Assembly (NCBI GenBank): GCA_002633115.1
Contig: NWBJ01000125.1
Coordinates: 1 to 32,467 of the forward strand
Length of the DNA: 32,467 nt
Direction of reading: 5' to 3'
Origin: Muribaculaceae bacterium Zag1
GTDB lineage: Bacteria; Bacteroidota; Bacteroidia; Bacteroidales; Muribaculaceae
The notes beneath the pieces were generated by a model. The model saw nothing but the letters and a program-made list of their open reading frames with translations, did no database searches and was not told where the DNA came from. A program made the position numbers and the translations under genes. Shown piece after piece: positions 442-19,856 of this stretch (positions are counted from its first letter, which is position 1; each line of letters opens with the position of its first letter).

Positions 442-1758
442 TTAGCGGAGAGTCTTAGAGCGCCAGGTGTCGAGGACTGAGGAGGAGGGGAGAACGGTCG
501 GAGTCTGAGGTTGGCTGTTGACAGCTGAGCGACGACGCACCTGCTGGATTACATAGTCGGCCAGTTCACCGTAGGTGACCTTTCCGGAGGTTTCTTGCAG
601 CTTTTTAAGCAAGAAATAGGTGAACATGCCATGGCCCTGTTCAGCGTAAGCATGGGCAGTCTCAGTGCCTTGCGAAGCACTGAATGCTATCACTGAGCCA
701 AGTGGTTCTTCATCGCGGGCTGCGACTACTATACCGCGCTCACCTTGCGCGAGGAGTTCGCCTTCGCGGTTGGTACCGCTGAAGCAGGCATCAAGGAACA
801 CTGCGATATTGTCAGACTTGATTTTGCCTAATCTCGAGTATATGCCTTGCAATGAGAAACCCGTAGAGGCCGCATTGGCAGTAGCGTCGACAGGCATCAA
901 GTAGGGAGCCTTGTCTGAATCGTTAGGTATGCCGTGGCCAGCGTAGTAGAATATGATCTTGGCATCGCCATCGTAGGCTTGGCCCACATTGGAAATCCAA
1001 TCCATCTCCGACTTCATGTGGTTGTAGGTGGCGTTTTCGCGGATATGGATGTTTTCAGATGGGATGCCGAGAGTCATCTGGCAATAGTTTCGGAATGAGC
1101 GCCCATCGCTTAGGGCATAATCTACGCTCGACATGTTGTCGTACTTCTCGTTGGCGATGATTACCACGAAGGTGTTGGCGTTGTCAGTCGGATTGTGGGG
1201 CACATCGATGTCGACATCGGAAATCACAATTTCGCGTTTCTCCACCTCACGCTTGATTACCTCGATAGGCTGACTATATGTGAGGTTCACATTCTTGCTT
1301 TCGGTGAACAGGTTCTCGCCCGAATAGTCGAGCACCGATGGCAAACACAGATTCTTCAGATTCTTGCACCAACCGAAGGCCCGCTTCCCTATCGATTTCA
1401 CCGAACCAGGGATTTGCACATCCACCACGGCTGAGCGGAAGAATGCGTACTCGTCAATCTCAGTGACGGTAGTCGGAATCTCCACATACAGTAGGTTCTC
1501 ATAGCCAGCGAATGCACACCGTCCTATCTTGGTGATGGTGTACTGGTCGCCGTAGACGGTGACAGCAGATGGTATTTGTAGAGTGGTGTTTTTGTTCCAC
1601 TTCTCCAGTTTGCGATGCTGCATGATGGGGTACTTATGCTCATCGGGAGTGAACGTGTCATCATATATCTCAGCCGTCATATCGGCCTGATTACACCGCA
1701 CACTAAATGGCGTGGCACCAATGCGCAGCACCGACTGCGCCTTATGTGCCCATGGCAC
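442..1758 (-). CDS. Secreted leucine-rich-repeat caspase-like peptidase (C14), 5' end frameshifted
   Basis: Body of about 430 residues. Residues about 65-160 are BspA-type LRR_5 repeats (IGRCAFAGYENLLYVEIP, then IDEYAF and IGKRAFGWCKNL). Residues about 195-430 are a caspase/metacaspase fold: strand TFVVIIANEKY, the catalytic His in YYAGHG (about His275) and the catalytic Cys in LDACFSG (about Cys325), so both dyad residues are present. The open frame begins only at a GTG (1758) and lacks an export signal. A perfect signal peptide sits just upstream in another frame (1742-1795), so the gene probably started at 1795, 21 nt after the upstream stop. It is the last gene of a four-gene minus-strand operon. 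Families of this kind cleave after basic or acidic residues; the substrate is unknown. Either a broken or phase-variable gene, or an assembly error at a hairpin. Confidence 0.85.
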   Translation of the reverse strand: MPWAHKAQSVLRIGATPFSVRCNQADMTAEIYDDTFTPDEHKYPIMQHRKLEKWNKNTTLQIPSAVTVYGDQYTITKIGRCAFAGYENLLYVEIPTTVTEIDEYAFFRSAVVDVQIPGSVKSIGKRAFGWCKNLKNLCLPSVLDYSGENLFTESKNVNLTYSQPIEVIKREVEKREIVISDVDIDVPHNPTDNANTFVVIIANEKYDNMSSVDYALSDGRSFRNYCQMTLGIPSENIHIRENATYNHMKSEMDWISNVGQAYDGDAKIIFYYAGHGIPNDSDKAPYLMPVDATANAASTGFSLQGIYSRLGKIKSDNIAVFLDACFSGTNREGELLAQGERGIVVAARDEEPLGSVIAFSASQGTETAHAYAEQGHGMFTYFLLKKLQETSGKVTYGELADYVIQQVRRRSAVNSQPQTPTVLPSSSVLDTWRSKTLR

Positions 1759-1768
1759 ATAAGGCGCA
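1736..1768. repeat. Perfect 15-bp inverted repeat with 3-nt loop
   Basis: The left arm TGCGCCTTATGTGCC (1736-1750) and right arm GGCACATAAGGCGCA (1754-1768) are exact reverse complements, separated by CAT. It covers the frame break between the caspase signal peptide and the mature protein. Confidence 0.95.
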
Positions 1769-1795
1769 AAGTACCAATATCGATATATTTTTCAT
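1742..1795 (-). other. Out-of-frame signal peptide of the caspase gene
   Basis: An ATG at 1795 opens MKNISILVLCALCAMGT and then meets TAA at 1742-1744. This is a textbook signal peptide: Lys near the start, then a hydrophobic core. The caspase body in the neighbouring frame continues as AHKAQSVLRIG, a plausible cleavage zone. A single-nucleotide change inside the inverted repeat at 1736-1768 would join the two. The start lies 21 nt after the preceding operon gene's stop, as expected for the true start codon. Confidence 0.75.
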
Positions 1796-1816: not shown

Positions 1817-2908
1817 TCAAAGAGCCTGAAAGGCAGCATATCCGTAGTCTATGCTGACTCTAATATGAAGTTGACCACCGGGCCAATCTGGACAGGTCCA
1901 GCATCCTTTGCCATATCCAGACGTATAAGGCCTAAAGTAGATGTTCCAAGCTCTAAAACTTTTGATGGTGTCGTAAGATATTTCGATTGCAGTGTCATCT
2001 TCTTGAGCGCCTATTGAATAGTATTCCCAGTTGCCTGGGTGATAATAAAATCTAAAGCAGAACTCGCCCTCTGGAATATAGAAGTCACCCTCGTATATCC
2101 TATTCTCTGATTGGATAAGAGGCAGGTTCCATTCTTCATCTCCATCTATATTCCATCCTTGAGGAGTTCCTACCAACCAGATTTGGGATGGGGCATAATC
2201 CTCAAAATTCCATTGATAGGTATAGACATCGGACGTAAATTCGAGATTTGTGGATCGCAATACGAACTTAAAATAGTATTCATAAAGAATTCCTTGAGTA
2301 AAGGGAAGGGAAGTCGAGTTTGAATAAATCTCTTGCTCAGTGAAAGTATCGCTTTCATTCACCTCACGATACATTAAATATACATAGAATTTATCAAAAA
2401 AAGAATCAGGGATATTTAAATAGGCATAACCATATACATCATCAATAAGGATCTGTCCGCTAGGATTGAATTCGCTCATTGTCACTTTCTGGCTTGCCAC
2501 ACAGACAACGGGACCTGGACAATAATCTAGATCAGTTTGAAGCCATACCCAAACATAATAAGTTTCTCCAGGTATAAGACCGTTATAATTTATAGATGTC
2601 CCATCTGATGAGAAATCGTCCACGTAATCTCCTGATTCATGAAGCCGATCATAAAATTCAGCGGTCTCACCAAGTGTCACTTTGAATTCGGGATTGGTGG
2701 TTATGGCATATAGATAGAAACCCACATCCCCAGTGTAACCAGAAATCTGTGGCTGGATATTTATCGTGAAGCAGTCAGTCTCGGTGACGGTTAGGGATAG
2801 GGATGTTGTTGGTGGTGTTCCATCATCTTCAGAACAGCCGCCCACAAAGCAGCTAATGATGGCTGCAAGAAATAGAGGTAAAAATTTTTTCATCGCTTGA
2901 GATTTCAT
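1817..2908 (-). CDS. Surface lipoprotein with SusE/SusF-like C-terminal domain
   Basis: 363 residues. After a hydrophobic stretch the lipobox FVGGC marks the lipidated Cys, followed by SEDDG, an acidic run of the sort seen on Bacteroidota surface-exported lipoproteins. The more usual signal-peptide start would be the second Met (position 2893, MKKFLPLF). Residues about 35-140 look like an Ig/Fn3-type beta-sandwich with a Y-V-W-V strand. The C-terminal part (IWLVGTPQGWN, then YEGDFYIPEGEFCFRFYY) resembles starch-binding SusE/SusF-type domains, suggesting glycan binding; this is inference from pattern. The gene is visibly more A+T-rich than its neighbours. It lies 6 nt after the barrel-like gene and 21 nt before the caspase signal-peptide start, so it is co-transcribed. 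Confidence 0.75.
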   Translation of the reverse strand: MKSQAMKKFLPLFLAAIISCFVGGCSEDDGTPPTTSLSLTVTETDCFTINIQPQISGYTGDVGFYLYAITTNPEFKVTLGETAEFYDRLHESGDYVDDFSSDGTSINYNGLIPGETYYVWVWLQTDLDYCPGPVVCVASQKVTMSEFNPSGQILIDDVYGYAYLNIPDSFFDKFYVYLMYREVNESDTFTEQEIYSNSTSLPFTQGILYEYYFKFVLRSTNLEFTSDVYTYQWNFEDYAPSQIWLVGTPQGWNIDGDEEWNLPLIQSENRIYEGDFYIPEGEFCFRFYYHPGNWEYYSIGAQEDDTAIEISYDTIKSFRAWNIYFRPYTSGYGKGCWTCPDWPGGQLHIRVSIDYGYAAFQAL

Positions 2909-2914
2909 TGTTGG

Positions 2915-3490
2915 TTAGAAATTATAAGTTAGGCCCACGCCACATTCTGCACCCACGCCTATATGTACCTTATCGCCTGAAAAGCTTTTGCTATAGCACG
3001 TGCCCACGGCTTTGGCTTCAATTTGCAGGGAGAGAAAATGGGTGAGACGGACATCCACACCAATGCCCGTATTGGCGAAGATGCAATTGCGGGTAATCAG
3101 ATTGTCAACGTTCTCGCCCTCCATAGGTACCGAGCCGTAGCCAGCGCCGAAGATGTAATAGGCACGTGTGCGACAAGGCTTTGAGAAGAATACGTGCATA
3201 TCAAGGCTTACCTCAGTTAGCGACTTATCAAATCCGACAAGCAGGGTTCCAGCCAAGGCCAAGCGCACATGGTCGCTGGTGTTTAACATCAGGCGCACTT
3301 TGCCGCCAGGCATCAGCTTGCCCTCGGCAGAGTAATCGTCTCGCACGATTCCATCATTGAGATAGTCAGGGCCGTAAAAATAGTAACGACCAGTGCCCTC
3401 AATGCCCACTTGGACCATGCCCTTTTGGGCATAGAGCGAGGCAGAGGCGGTAATGGCCATCAACAGAAGTAATAGTTTTTTGAATGTCAT
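2915..3490 (-). CDS. Small outer-membrane-barrel-like protein, function unknown
   Basis: 191 residues. MTFKKLLLLLMAITASASLYAQ is a clear signal peptide ending at AQ. The mature part has alternating hydrophobic/polar strands, with several Gly-aromatic turns (GRYYFYG, YYIFGAGYG) and a C-terminal GVGLTYNF ending in Phe. That pattern fits an eight-stranded outer-membrane beta-barrel. There is no catalytic motif. It is second in the four-gene operon, after a 79-nt gap filled with low-complexity CTTATG and TTTTATGG runs. Its place between a secreted DUF4384-type protein and a lipoprotein suggests it anchors or ports the others at the outer membrane; that role is inference. Confidence 0.65.
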   Translation of the reverse strand: MTFKKLLLLLMAITASASLYAQKGMVQVGIEGTGRYYFYGPDYLNDGIVRDDYSAEGKLMPGGKVRLMLNTSDHVRLALAGTLLVGFDKSLTEVSLDMHVFFSKPCRTRAYYIFGAGYGSVPMEGENVDNLITRNCIFANTGIGVDVRLTHFLSLQIEAKAVGTCYSKSFSGDKVHIGVGAECGVGLTYNF

Positions 3491-3569: not shown

Positions 3570-4484
3570 TTATGGCATCACGAAGATGGGGTGGACGCGG
3601 AGCTGCATCTGTGGATCACGCTTGCGGTTGCGACTGAGCCATTTCTGAAAGTCGCGATAAGTGAGCTGACGAGGGAAATCGAGTTCTGTTACATCCTTCT
3701 CATCGCTTTGGGCATCCGAGGCGCGACTGAAATGATTGGGAGAAAAGATAACATACAGTTGTCCCATCTCTGTCTGGTCGCCCGAGGCGGTGAGTCGATA
3801 AGCATCAACGATTGAGGATACTTCCTGCGGTACTTTCTCTGGCGCAAAGAGGTAATAATCAGTGTCAGCCCCTACGCTGAAAGCCTCATCCTTCTGCCTA
3901 CGATAGGGCAGCAGGCGATATACGTTTTGGCTACCAACATCGAGCATATACACAGTGAGCCACCCGTCAACTGGTGACGAGAAGTGCATATACATGTAAT
4001 CCAGATTTCTGAATTGGTCTGAGACCATCTTCTTGTCGGGTAGATTTCTCAGCACATTGACTTGAAGGTCTATAGGGGTATAAGCTGATTCACGGATTAC
4101 GCCTCGAGTAGTCACAGACACTACCAAAAGCCCTTGATCATAGGTGATTTCATATTTTGGTTCTTTTGTAGTCTCAATCCACTCGCCGCGCACCTCGCTG
4201 CCTCCGATAGACAAGAAATTTAGCTTGTCGGCACTGTAAGTGATGGATTCAGTCTGGTCGACATAGGTGCCAAACTCGTTGGCGATGGCTTGGATTTGAG
4301 CGCGCTCAAGTGCTATCATCTTGGCCTCGTCGACCGACTGGCTCGGGGCTGCATGATAGGTGTAGGCGGCATCAACAGTGCGAGTCTGCTGTGCCGAAAC
4401 AACGAAAGTCACAAAAGCAATAAGGAACGCAAGGAGCGACAGGCGCATTATCAGTCTCATCAAGGCAATGCCGCGCCCTGGCAT
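3570..4484 (-). CDS. Secreted DUF4384-domain protein, first gene of caspase operon
   Basis: About 304 residues. The start is uncertain: ATG at 4484, or the internal Met codons at 4460 or 4448, all giving a signal peptide (LSLLAFLIAFVTFVVSAQQ). Residues about 40-90 (AKMIALERAQIQAIANEFGT) resemble the N-terminal helix-strand unit found in secreted LPP20/FlgT-like proteins. Residues about 165-265 contain MHFSSPVDGWLTVYMLD, then NVYRLLPYR and YLFAPEKV. This matches the DUF4384 pattern, which in many bacteria is fused to or encoded beside caspase-like peptidases. That association supports a joint function with the caspase encoded three genes downstream. The domain's biochemical role is not known. 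The gene begins shortly beyond the candidate 6S RNA locus, with little room for its own promoter. Confidence 0.7.
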   Translation of the reverse strand: MPGRGIALMRLIMRLSLLAFLIAFVTFVVSAQQTRTVDAAYTYHAAPSQSVDEAKMIALERAQIQAIANEFGTYVDQTESITYSADKLNFLSIGGSEVRGEWIETTKEPKYEITYDQGLLVVSVTTRGVIRESAYTPIDLQVNVLRNLPDKKMVSDQFRNLDYMYMHFSSPVDGWLTVYMLDVGSQNVYRLLPYRRQKDEAFSVGADTDYYLFAPEKVPQEVSSIVDAYRLTASGDQTEMGQLYVIFSPNHFSRASDAQSDEKDVTELDFPRQLTYRDFQKWLSRNRKRDPQMQLRVHPIFVMP

Positions 4485-4511
4485 CAAGTAAGAGATTTAT
4501 AAAAAGAAAAA

Positions 4512-5958: not shown

Positions 5959-6385
5959 TCAGAATAGGTCATTGATCTTGGTGGCGAAAAAGTCTTCTAA
6001 TGAGAGGCCACCCGTGCCAACCACAAATGATTGACGAGGAGAATATCGTTTCTTGAACTCTGGAAGGCCTGAGTTCATGCCGCGCCTCCCACTCTTCACC
6101 TTGATGGCCACGCATTCTCCTTGACGCTCAATCGCGAAGTCTATCTCCAAGTCCTTTTCGCGCCAATATTTGAGTTGGCATCCTGCCTCATCGCATTGGT
6201 TTATGAGGTGGGCCCCAACAGCGGATTCCACCTGTCGACCCCATTCTACTGGGTCGAGACGTTGACCATCAAAACTTTTAAGGTAGACTTGCCTACTTGG
6301 CGAGGTCCCACCAGGACTTGTATCTGTCGACGCGTTCGCTGATGCGAGCCATCATGGTATGGTATTGGAATCTGCGGTATTCCAT
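5959..6385 (-). pseudogene. Decayed AAA ATPase / DUF4143 gene
   Basis: From an ATG at 6385 the reading MEYRRFQYHTMMARISERVDR runs into a stop. One base lost after AGA restores QVLVGPRQVGKST, a Walker A motif of the AAA_14 ATPases that carry a C-terminal DUF4143 domain. A second frame jump then joins directly to the family's C-terminus: FDGQRLDPVEWGRQVESAVG, HLINQC, a DFAIE motif, then KSGRRG. The piece totals about 140 codons, against the usual 380-400, so about 250 codons are missing between Walker A and the C-terminal domain, in addition to frameshifts. The last 90 residues remain open (6231 to 5959). Surely non-functional as an ATPase. Three phased repeats survive upstream of the old start. 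Confidence 0.85.
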
Positions 6386-15754: not shown

Positions 15755-17071
15755 ATGACCACCTCCCACTACCTGATGTTATTGGCAACAGCCTCGCTCG
15801 CCATTGGCATTGGCTGCTCTACTCAACGAGAAGCGCAGCCCCAAATCGATGTCGAGCAAGAAATCAGCTACTGCCGTGACAAGATTATGCAATCGCTCAG
15901 CGAATTGGCCGATTCCGACGGGGTGATTGACTATACTCAGGCGCCTCGCAATATATGCGGCACCGACACGCGCTGGGCTTGCCGTCCGGCTTGCGCTGAA
16001 GAGTGGTGTGGCGGATTTTGGCCTGGCATCCTCTGGTACGCCTACCAAGCCACTGGCGACAACGAGATTGCCTATCAGGCCGATAAGTACACACGTGCCC
16101 TGCAGGTCATCACCGAGCAGCCGGTGCTCGACCATGACCTCGGTTTCTTATTCTTCTGCAGCTATGGCAATGGCTATCGCCTGACGGGCAATCCCGACTA
16201 CAAGCGCCAGCTGCTTACCGCTGCCGACTCTCTCGCTACCCTCTATAATCCCGCCGTTGGCACCTTGCTCGCCTGGCCGCGCCATGTGGCTGACTACGGT
16301 GGCCACAATACTATCATGGACACCATGATCAATCTTGAGCTGCTTTTCTGGGCAGCAAAGAATGGCGGCGATTATCGCCTCTACGACATGGCTGTGGCGC
16401 ATGCCGATACCACGATGCGCTATCAGTTCCGTCCTGACTATACCAGCTACCATGTGGCTGTCTATGACCCGGTGACTGGCAAATTCCTCAGATGCTGTAC
16501 CCACCAGGGATATTCTGACGATAGCATGTGGGCGCGCGGCCAGGCCTGGGCCATCTATGGCTACACGATGGTATACCGTGAGACCCATGAGCCGCGATTC
16601 CTCGACTTTGCCGAGCATGTCACCGATGCCTATCTCGAGCGCTTGCCCGATGATATGGTGCCGTACTGGGATTTCAACGATCCGGCCATACCCGATGCTC
16701 CGCGCGATGCCTCGGCTGCTTGCGTGGTTGCCTCGGCCCTGCTCGAGCTTAAGGATTATGTCGATGCGCCTGAGCGCGACCGATATCGCGATGCGGCTGT
16801 CGAGATGCTCAAGAGTCTGTGCTCTGACCGATACAAGGCTGGAAGCCAAAATTCGGCATTCCTGCTCCACTCTACGGGTCATCATCCGGCTGGATCGGAA
16901 ATCGACGCGTCGATTGTCTACGCCGACTACTACTTCCTCGAGGCCCTCGAGCGCATGGAGCGCGACCAGCATCACTCGGTCAATTTGGCAAAAAAAATAG
17001 GCCTTTTCCCGTCTTTTTCAAATTTTATTAGTAACTTTACAAAAATTTCTCACCGACGATTCTCGCCATGA
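15755..17071 (+). CDS. GH88 unsaturated glucuronyl hydrolase lipoprotein
   Basis: 438 residues. Lipobox GIGC (Cys21) puts it on a membrane. The body is an alpha/alpha-barrel of family GH88: WCGGFWPGILWYAYQATGD (about 84-102), HDLGF (127-131, with the catalytic-type Asp128), YRLTG, HNTIMDTMINLELLFWA (second key Asp189), then GYSDDSMWARGQAWAIYGY. GH88 enzymes remove the 4,5-unsaturated uronic acid left by polysaccharide lyases, which fits the heparinase-type lyase encoded downstream. The last 30 residues (from about 408, after RMERDQHH) look unlike the family, are A+T-rich in DNA and may be read-through of a former intergenic region. The stop overlaps the next gene's start as ATGA (17068-17071). 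Confidence 0.92.
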   Translation: MTTSHYLMLLATASLAIGIGCSTQREAQPQIDVEQEISYCRDKIMQSLSELADSDGVIDYTQAPRNICGTDTRWACRPACAEEWCGGFWPGILWYAYQATGDNEIAYQADKYTRALQVITEQPVLDHDLGFLFFCSYGNGYRLTGNPDYKRQLLTAADSLATLYNPAVGTLLAWPRHVADYGGHNTIMDTMINLELLFWAAKNGGDYRLYDMAVAHADTTMRYQFRPDYTSYHVAVYDPVTGKFLRCCTHQGYSDDSMWARGQAWAIYGYTMVYRETHEPRFLDFAEHVTDAYLERLPDDMVPYWDFNDPAIPDAPRDASAACVVASALLELKDYVDAPERDRYRDAAVEMLKSLCSDRYKAGSQNSAFLLHSTGHHPAGSEIDASIVYADYYFLEALERMERDQHHSVNLAKKIGLFPSFSNFISNFTKISHRRFSP

Positions 17072-19476
17072 AGCTGATCATTTGTCGCAAACGTTTGGCT
17101 CTGTTGTTGATAGTGGTCCTGAGCGCAGTCTTGGGAGCCGGTGCTGTGTGCGTTGGTCCCCACACTTCGCTGCAGGGCCTTACACCCCTCGAGGGTTTGT
17201 CTGATTTGTTGGTGAATGTTATTCATCGTGATTCAGCGGGGTATGTTTGGATTGGTACGAGCGAGGCTGTAGATCGGTATGACGGAAACGCGGTAAAGAC
17301 CTACCCGATGCCGGGTCAGAATGAGAGGTTGAAGCGCGTCAACGCCTTGGCTACTGCCATCGACGGCAATCTGTATGTTGGCAACGGCGAGGGCCTGTGG
17401 GTGCTTGGCCCCAATAGCCAAGCATTGGTGAGAACGGCTGAGAGCCAGATACAATGTCCCGTCAAGGCTCTGTTGGCCGTTGCCAATCAGCTATATATCG
17501 CTTCTGACCATGGCCTGTATGTGCTTAACTTGGCTGATGGCAGCATAGAGCATTTCTATCCCGCTGGTTCGGCTCTGCCGGCAACCAATCGCCTTAACGG
17601 CATCGCTGCTGGGCCTGATGGCAGCATCTGGCTCTCGGCCGCCGGAGCGGTGCACCAGTTTGACCCCGAGCAAAAGCAATTTCACACCTATCCCTATTCA
17701 GGTAAGGCATCGCTTACCAGCATAGCCTTGGCGGGCAATGTGCCATATATAGCCTCTAATGGCGAAGGCATAATGCGCTTGGATTCTGTTGAGCAGAAAA
17801 TTGTGCATTACGTCAATTGCGGTAACAATATCATTTCGGCCGTCATTGCTGATGGCGATAGCCTGCTGTATGTCAGCACCGATGGCCAAGGCATCAGATT
17901 TATCTCCATACCAGAGGGCGAGACTGTTTGCTCTATCAGTCATAGCCCTCAGAGCCAACCCAGGCTCAGATCCAACTCAGTATATTCTCTTTTGGTTGAT
18001 GCCGAGGGGCTGATGTGGGTTGGGTACTACCAGGATGGTCTTGACTATACTCTGCCTCACCGCGACCTGTTTGAGGTATATTCTGTGCCAGGGCTTATCG
18101 ATACCCAGGGCATGACAGTGAGAGCATTCTACAATGATGGACCCGTCAAAGTGATTGGCACTCGCGAAGGCCTCTATTATGTCGACGAGGAGCGTGCAGT
18201 GTGCCGGAAATTCTCTGTGCCGGAGATTCAGTCAAATATGATATTCGCTATCGAGAAATACGGCGACGACTATTGGATTGGCACTTATGGCGGCGGTCTC
18301 TATGTGCTCGATGGCGACGGGCGCACTATGCGTCCGATAGATATCCGTGGGCGCCTCAATGAGGAGGGTTCGGTGTTTTGCCTGAGCCAGGATGCCAAGG
18401 GCCATATATGGGTAGGCACCAGCCAGGGGGTGTTCCATTTCAACGGCAATAAGCTGTTGGATCATTTCACCCATGACAATTCGCGTTTGCCTGCTGGCAA
18501 TGTCTACAACATATTTTTTGACTCTAATGGCACTGGCTGGATTTGCGCCGAGGAGGGACTCTGCATCTGGGATGGCTTTTCGCTGCGCGACGATGTGTTT
18601 CGTCCCGATTTTCCCGACAAGGAGAAATTTCGCGACATCTACGAATCGGCCGACCATCACCTGTATTTCATGCCCGACCGTGGCGAAATCCTCAGGACCA
18701 ACCTTGCCCTGACCGAGATGAGCCGCTTCAAGCCTCAGGGACTGCATGGCTCCTATAATGGCGCTTTTGTGATTGAGGATAATGCCGGAGGCATCTGGTA
18801 TGGCACCAGCAATGGACTGAGCCGCTGCGAGGGTGAAGACACATTCTGGCGATTCAACAATGTTGATGGGTTGCCCAATCCGTCGTTTACGCTCTGCAAG
18901 CCTATCAAGGACGAGAATGGTGATTTGTGGATGGGCAACAACAATGGCTTGATTCTATTCCGCAACTCCAGCCTCTCGGCTCTCGAGCACAATTCGCGTC
19001 CAGTCAAGGTGACGGATGTGATGTCGGGGCGCACCTCGATACCTTTTGCTGTCGACCATGGGTTTGCGCTCAGCAATGAGCAGCGAAATGTGACGTTCAG
19101 CGTCTCTGACTTCTCCTTTTCCTCGGTAGCCGATCATGCTTATGAGTGCCGTCTTGACGGTGTGGATGACGGTTGGCAATTTCTTGGCAATCATTCTCGC
19201 GCCAGTTATTACGACTTAAAGCCGGGCAAGTACACATTCAGGGTGAGGCGCATAGGCGAACCCGCCTCAGAGACCTCTCTTGCCTTCAAGGTCAAAGGTC
19301 CATGGTGGGGTTGGATCGTTTTTGTCGGTTTGGCAATCTTGCTGGCAGGCGTGGCTTACTGGGTGGTGAAAAAGAAGCCATGGGGCATATTGAGGCTCAG
19401 CCTGATGCTCCTGAATCCTCAGAAGATGTCGCATCGGAAGACACGCAAACTGAAGAAAACGAGGCCCAAGAGGTGA
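17068..19476 (+). CDS. SusR-like PUL regulator, sensor part (propeller, Y_Y_Y, membrane span); C-terminus frameshifted
   Basis: The authentic part is residues 1 to about 767. Residues 1-26 are a signal anchor (LALLLIVVLSAVLGAGAVCV). About 45-640 is a two-component-regulator propeller (Reg_prop) with repeated motifs such as GYVWIGTSEAVDRYDG, YWIGTYGGGLYVLDGDG, HIWVGTSQGVFHF and LWMGNNNGLILF. About 660-735 is a Y_Y_Y domain ending YYDLKPGKYTFRVR. A single span GWIVFVGLAILLAGVAYW follows. At 19368-19374 (GAAAAAG) the frame is lost: the last 35 codons here are spurious and the true continuation lies in the -1 frame. Periplasmic sensing of the PUL's oligosaccharide is inferred from the family. It overlaps the GH88 stop, so it is co-transcribed inside the PUL. 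Confidence 0.9.
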   Translation: MKLIICRKRLALLLIVVLSAVLGAGAVCVGPHTSLQGLTPLEGLSDLLVNVIHRDSAGYVWIGTSEAVDRYDGNAVKTYPMPGQNERLKRVNALATAIDGNLYVGNGEGLWVLGPNSQALVRTAESQIQCPVKALLAVANQLYIASDHGLYVLNLADGSIEHFYPAGSALPATNRLNGIAAGPDGSIWLSAAGAVHQFDPEQKQFHTYPYSGKASLTSIALAGNVPYIASNGEGIMRLDSVEQKIVHYVNCGNNIISAVIADGDSLLYVSTDGQGIRFISIPEGETVCSISHSPQSQPRLRSNSVYSLLVDAEGLMWVGYYQDGLDYTLPHRDLFEVYSVPGLIDTQGMTVRAFYNDGPVKVIGTREGLYYVDEERAVCRKFSVPEIQSNMIFAIEKYGDDYWIGTYGGGLYVLDGDGRTMRPIDIRGRLNEEGSVFCLSQDAKGHIWVGTSQGVFHFNGNKLLDHFTHDNSRLPAGNVYNIFFDSNGTGWICAEEGLCIWDGFSLRDDVFRPDFPDKEKFRDIYESADHHLYFMPDRGEILRTNLALTEMSRFKPQGLHGSYNGAFVIEDNAGGIWYGTSNGLSRCEGEDTFWRFNNVDGLPNPSFTLCKPIKDENGDLWMGNNNGLILFRNSSLSALEHNSRPVKVTDVMSGRTSIPFAVDHGFALSNEQRNVTFSVSDFSFSSVADHAYECRLDGVDDGWQFLGNHSRASYYDLKPGKYTFRVRRIGEPASETSLAFKVKGPWWGWIVFVGLAILLAGVAYWVVKKKPWGILRLSLMLLNPQKMSHRKTRKLKKTRPKR

Positions 19477-19856
19477 GCGAAGTGAAATACCGCGGCAACA
19501 AGTACACCACCGAGCAATGTCAGGAGATGGAAGAGCGTCTCAACAAGCTGATGGCCGAAGAGAAACTTTATGTAAATCCTGACCTCACAGTGGGTATGCT
19601 CGCCGCTAAGCTCGATCTGTCGTCCCACGCCTTGTCGTACCTTTTCAATCAATACATGGATACCAGTTTCTATGAGTACGTCAATCGCTTGCGCGTAGAA
19701 ATGGTGAAAGATATGATTGACCGGGGCGAGGCTGCAACTTATACCATAGGCGCGATGGGGGAGATGTGCGGATTCCGCTCAAAGACCTCATATCTGCGCT
19801 CATTCAAAAAGGAACTCGGTGTCACACCAAAAGAATACATCAAAAAACAAAAATAA
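19368..19856 (+). pseudogene. Regulator C-terminal part: linker and AraC-type DNA-binding domain in the -1 frame
   Basis: In the -1 frame after AAAAAG the reading goes through an acidic linker (PDAPESSEDVASEDTQTEEN). It then reaches an AraC/HTH_18 domain: LTVGMLAAKLDLSSHALSYL, FNQYMDTSFYEYVNRLRVEM, then TYTIGAMGEMCGFRSKTSYL and FKKELGVTPKEYI, ending at TAA 19856. No histidine kinase or receiver domain lies between the span and the helix-turn-helix, so the whole protein (about 929 residues) has a SusR-like one-component design, not a hybrid two-component one. An internal ATG (19383) lies in the linker and could start a free DNA-binding fragment. The break may be a mutation, an assembly error in the A-run, or recoding. 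Confidence 0.85.

Follow-up and report, generated by a model that had tools for sequence, protein, structure and literature searches.

A caspase-like peptidase gene of Muribaculaceae bacterium Zag1 with its signal-peptide-like start out of frame at a perfect hairpin

In a draft assembly of Muribaculaceae bacterium Zag1 (137 contigs), the last gene of a minus-strand run combines a caspase-like reading frame with a signal-peptide-like start that lies one base out of frame, the two meeting within a perfect inverted repeat. This arrangement raises the question of whether the locus records a mutation templated by the hairpin, an error in the assembled sequence, an ordinary indel, a reversible switch of export or simply a gene that starts further downstream. 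We addressed this question by analysis of the 32,467-nt stretch that makes up positions 1 to 32,467 of contig NWBJ01000125.1 (hereafter, the window), its relatives and further parts of the genome. The features concerned are the following.

442..1758, minus strand: caspase-like body ORF, 438 amino acids, with LRR_5 and Peptidase_C14 domains and a GTG start (domain profile search)
1736..1750, minus strand: second hairpin arm, containing the stop of the short ORF; presumptive place of the frame change
1742..1795, minus strand: short ORF from ATG to TAA, 17 codons, an out-of-frame signal-peptide-like segment (ORF translation)
1751..1753, no strand: loop of 3 nt (inverted-repeat search)
1754..1768, minus strand: first hairpin arm in the direction of the gene, hydrophobic core in the ATG frame (inverted-repeat search)
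1817..2908, minus strand: lipoprotein-like gene (by eye), 363 amino acids, upstream of the caspase; no Pfam, NCBIfam or PADLOC match at E 0.001
2915..3490, minus strand: outer-membrane beta-barrel-like gene, 191 amino acids, upstream; OMP_b-brl match below the curated cut-off
3570..4487, minus strand: upstream gene resembling (by eye) the first gene of the homologous runs; no Pfam, NCBIfam or PADLOC match at E 0.001

The displaced signal peptide and its caspase-like body

Translation from the ATG at 1795, which lies 21 nt beyond the stop of the preceding lipoprotein-like gene, yields MKNISILVLCALCAMGT and terminates at 1744-1742, within the second arm. The GTG at 1758 that opens the body ORF is itself inside the hairpin and lies 37 nt past this ATG, and hence one base out of frame with it, whereas in the body frame a stop at 1794-1792 overlaps the ATG; the signal-peptide-like segment and the C14 body thus occupy different frames. 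An inverted-repeat search of positions 1600-2000 identified the 15-nt arms, 1736-1750 and 1754-1768 on the minus strand, as 100% complementary with 3 nt between them, and neither a repeat tract nor an invertible segment was seen at the site; the base runs beside the break do not exceed 3. The preliminary description, which placed a one-nucleotide shift between signal peptide and caspase body in perfect 15-bp arms around a 3-nt loop, is thereby confirmed. In the ATG frame, the first arm encodes the hydrophobic core, and from the A-Q site on the body frame is required; the frame change is therefore presumably confined to the loop or the second arm of this 33-nt hairpin, in a gene of ~1.35 kb. 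The palindrome itself accounts for the stable RNA fold predicted for 140 nt of the region (-55 kcal/mol, z -4.1).

Within the body, H275 and C325, which we take to be the catalytic pair of the C14 domain, are invariant across five aligned sequences, namely the window body and its four nearest two-domain homologues: L050 (genome G109, 48% identity), L077 (G417, 46%), L002 (contig C114 of the same genome, 43%) and L011 (the congener G014, 42%). All four homologues open with a hydrophobic, export-like segment that ends at an invariant Gln, equivalent to residue 8 of the window body, and thus where the short ORF of the window would end. By a crude hydrophobicity rule, such a start is present in 31 of the 33 scorable caspase loci and missing from the other two (51 caspase-domain loci were scored, of which 18 run off their locus; the 31 positives include some near-copies, such as L082 and L083, and at least one, L068, that looks false). 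The preliminary description had allowed that all homologues might start at the GTG without a signal peptide; in the relatives, export-like segments in fact begin the frame. These comparisons suggest that a signal peptide was very probably intended upstream of the caspase body, and that the enzyme is probably an exported caspase-like peptidase.

A screen of 373 well-scoring genes from the same genome points in the same direction. An in-frame export-like start was found in 171 of these genes, and the remaining 202 yielded four out-of-frame candidates, among which the window's alone leads straight to an A-Q site (by eye); the screen was not exhaustive, as it missed the case at L089 9769-10494 discussed below. 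In a control genome (G044), none of 222 genes had an out-of-frame export-like start. A genome-wide habit of signal-peptide breakage was considered and rejected, given that the candidates amount to 4 of 373 including the window's, with two spurious by eye and the last, at L162 3757-5556, a doubtful case.

In the gene neighborhood, a similar first gene and a beta-barrel-like gene lie directly upstream of the caspase in all four nearest homologues (by eye). The lipoprotein-like gene is 5' of the caspase in the window and 3' of it in L002 and L011 only (by eye). Downstream of the caspase, at 177-418, are six tandem 42-nt units, each consisting of a hairpin followed by T-rich sequence in the gene direction; four of the six are listed as terminator-like, and the 32-nt core of the unit does not occur elsewhere in the genome at up to 3 mismatches. 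At 5959-6231, a fragment matching the end of DUF4143 is probably a gene remnant.

Searches for closer relatives in 49 genus, 397 family and 393 order genomes (overlapping sets, of which the family and order sets were sampled and searched at stricter E-value limits) gave a best full-length identity of 48%, and one match to the caspase domain alone reached 52% (G623). A short-peptide-pattern scan for close relatives in an 84,980-species collection returned two loci, both matching the repeat part only; 18 plasmid records matched, none over 80% of the query, viral contigs gave no match, and the eight sequences of solved structures that matched did so in the repeat region. One 'caspase' model of PADLOC hits residues 216-381 (E 5e-12), and a caspase model of EACC1 type from NCBIfam scores far below its cut-off (60 vs 140 bits); neither match shows an anti-phage role.

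Several other identities for the hairpin were rejected. It is not a repeated element, as the exact arm occurs only at its own two places in the genome and 13 further places carry 2 mismatches, giving 15 arm-like places in all against 67 for a reversed-pattern control. Nor is it an intrinsic terminator, 1736-1768 being absent from the terminator listing and lacking a stem followed by a T-run, and the window contains no known RNA family at gathering score. Programmed ribosomal frameshifting would need a +1 (or -2) shift, and no slippery site was seen by eye. Our literature search found no hairpin-broken signal peptide of a caspase-like family, which does not prove absence.

Perfect hairpins and frame breaks elsewhere in the genome

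The hairpin is not explained by chance composition: when 394 kb of this genome was simulated three times with a first-order Markov model, no arm exceeded 11 bp (loops 0-10). Across 755,173 bases (~552 kb called coding, window included), perfect hairpins whose arms reach 11 bp or more number 72 outside called genes and 8 within them, the window's falling among the 72 because the gene caller started the caspase downstream. Five of the eight in-gene hairpins have arms of at least 12 bp, against 0.36 expected from independent bases, although one of these five (L089 10457) straddles a start codon and another (L091 15166) would be outside genes under a different start choice. In 400 kb of the control genome G044, 22 hairpins lie outside genes and one inside, with none of 12 bp or more inside. 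Were the window's hairpin classed as in-gene, only that of L089 (17 bp) would exceed it in arm length. Thus, long perfect hairpins between genes are common in this genome, and the oddity of the window's is its position in what should be the 5' end of a coding region. The excess of perfect hairpins inside genes merits a wider count. Five of the eight in-gene hairpins lie within ~105 nt of a called gene start, as the window's would, a small number with uncertain start calls (at least that of L091 15166).

Comparison with the congener G014 was feasible for five of the eight in-gene hairpins, of which four are identical there and one differs at two bases; genes can therefore harbor perfect hairpins of some age, in which a later ordinary indel would look no different. 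A 14-bp perfect hairpin at L097 19744-19777, in frame and unchanged in G014, lies inside a gene presumably of an M16-type peptidase-like protein. In the 5' ends of the four nearest caspase homologues, hairpins of 7 bp or more are absent from three, and L077 has one of 8 bp. A 25-bp perfect inverted repeat at L091 18180-18235 carries a 6-N scaffold gap exactly at its loop, one of four N-gaps in 426 kb, so at least one hairpin troubled this assembly.

Frame breaks, too, are not confined to the caspase gene. From 6.7 kb on, most of the window has a counterpart in G014, spread over three contigs and mostly at 88-94% identity, with ~21.4-25.5 kb as the exception; for 1-6.7 kb only short G014 matches are listed, and the best G014 match to the caspase protein has 42% identity. 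In three stretches aligned to G014, 59,992 bases in all, a script marked 14 length differences not divisible by three. Four of them lie in DNA not called as genes, and two coincide with the called start of a gene (L089 1154 and 19019). By our own reading, three break a gene in the present genome (window 19382, L089 10457 and L097 609), each in or beside a single-base run, three concern the G014 copy (window 14513 and 19757, L089 10840), and two shift only the C-terminus (window 16997, L097 18592). The break near 19382 divides an AraC-type regulator (17068-19856), leaving Reg_prop and Y_Y_Y in one frame and HTH_18 in another; G014 has a single 933-codon ORF across this point, with a difference of its own further on. 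In the gene at L089 9769-10494, a second signal-peptide-like start is displaced by one base, and the G014 copy is in frame; the start codon is spanned by a 17-bp hairpin that does not differ between the two species, and the break is at a short T-run adjoining this hairpin. Gene-breaking differences thus amount to about one per 20 kb in both assemblies, a rate that suits short-run errors as well as real mutation, and one frame break can bear little weight. The segment 6723-8055 has the opposite orientation in G014 relative to a neighboring segment, and comparable reversals at L093 15104-16787 and L091 11167-11955 suggest that small inversions may be frequent.

Origin of the frame break

Tentatively, we regard a hairpin-templated (quasi-palindrome) mutation in the signal peptide as the best single reading of the locus. 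Sequencing or assembly error follows closely, and both are live; the likelihoods given here, for these and for the other readings, are judgements. The proposed course of events would begin with a caspase-like peptidase gene whose product was exported and comprised a signal peptide, BspA-type repeats and a C14 domain; a shorter, imperfect inverted repeat would have lain across the end of the signal peptide. At this repeat, the polymerase would have switched strands and copied the first arm into the second, which would have made the hairpin perfect and altered the length by a number of bases not divisible by three. As a result, there would be no single exported product: the ATG at 1795 would yield a 17-codon peptide, and initiation at the GTG an enzyme that lacks the signal peptide. 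We infer the template switch, its direction, its recency and the loss of export, and the event so envisaged is a mutation rather than a demonstrated switch.

The composition of the second arm is indirect evidence consistent with this course of events. In the body frame it reads Ala-His-Lys-Ala-Gln, whereas a script that picked out A-Q-type signal peptides in 398 called genes of this genome returned 55, of which 2 have K or H immediately ahead of the A and 7 a charged residue or H at either of the two positions preceding it. Given the rarity of His-Lys before Ala-Gln, the second arm looks foreign or copied and the first native, which fits template switching from the first arm. Moreover, the body is open and retains its His and Cys, so the break should be young or not real. 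The perfect 15-nt arms are those expected at a site mutated in this manner, and an origin by template switching, as the preliminary description had it, is consistent with the data; its claim of an exact fit was too strong, because no relative shows an imperfect ancestral palindrome and, with full-length identities of 48% at best, none is close enough for the ancestor to be read. The perfecting of quasi-palindromes by template switching is described for E. coli in the parts consulted of one source (PMC7202029) and treated as a route to perfect stems in those of another (PMC8794818), with sections of two more providing background on bacterial inverted repeats and hotspots linked to hairpins (PMC9234803; PMC10434271). 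The mutational mechanism is already known, and a new kind of system is not needed.

Under the closest competitor, which we consider a serious contender of only somewhat lower probability, the true gene is in frame and the assembled sequence misreads or wrongly fills the hairpin or a short run. The draft state of the assembly, the three gene breaks in or beside base runs, the N-gap exactly at the loop of the 25-bp hairpin and the undecayed caspase body all agree with such an error. However, the caspase break, unlike those three, adjoins no base run longer than 3, and the unusual end of the signal peptide spans several residues of the second arm, for which a one-base slip alone would be insufficient. 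We consider it unlikely that an ordinary one-base indel, a plain loss-of-export mutation unrelated to template switching, struck an older, already perfect hairpin: perfect in-gene hairpins shared by both species, such as that at L097 19744-19777, give this account its basis, but for the indel to fall inside 33 nt of ~1.35 kb would be a coincidence.

The preliminary description further proposed an on/off switch for export of the peptidase, and this proposal is unsupported. Reversible phase variation, in which hairpin-driven length changes turn export on and off, would agree with the location of the break in a signal peptide and with the second signal-peptide gene, at L089 9769-10494, whose frame is broken here but intact in G014. 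Nevertheless, we hold it to be quite improbable, as no alternative state came to light, template switching would perfect the palindrome with no simple way back, and other one-base breaks occur in the same assembly, that of L089 being a short T-run beside an unchanged hairpin. Still less probable is the fuller version, a heritable hairpin-templated switch that toggles surface export of the peptidase while the non-exported form acts inside the cell. Equally improbable is a cytosolic protein starting at GTG 1758 or later, with the short ORF as a chance occurrence or leader peptide: from the stop at 1794-1792 to position 1758 the body frame offers no ATG, GTG or TTG, the hairpin would become one of many between genes and two of the 33 scorable loci lack an export-like start by the crude test, but the export-like segments at the same place in all four homologues, the position of the ATG close behind the preceding gene and the direct run of this candidate alone, of four from 202 genes, to the A-Q site argue against such a start.

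If the hairpin-templated mutation is real, the locus is a natural example of the disabling of peptidase export by this route and an easy site at which to look for mixed populations. If the break is an error, hairpins and short runs can yield false pseudogenes in draft assemblies of this kind.

Comparison with known systems

Phase-variable surface genes are switched by repeat tracts or invertible segments. The window shares with them a frame change near a signal peptide and differs in having neither kind of element at the site. With bacterial metacaspases and caspase homologues (Peptidase_C14), it shares the C14 domain with conserved His and Cys, whereas the BspA-type repeats before this domain and the out-of-frame 5' end set it apart; according to the portion consulted of one study, some members of this family have an N-terminal helix that may be a signal peptide (PMC3501461). 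The nearest counterparts in gene context are the paralogue from the same genome (L002) and its G014 counterpart (L011), which align with the caspase over its full length and likewise have the first gene and the beta-barrel-like gene upstream and a lipoprotein-like gene alongside (by eye); unlike in the window, the latter gene follows the caspase and the export segment is in frame, at 42-43% identity.

The template-switch model of quasi-palindrome mutation is reportedly due to Ripley in 1982. Such mutations have been studied with the E. coli thyA hotspot and lacZ reporters, according to the part consulted of a source on the subject (PMC7202029). Although the imperfect ancestor of the window's hairpin is not seen and is deduced from a single sequence, the locus resembles these cases: a bacterial gene contains a perfect inverted repeat, and within this repeat the reading frame changes.
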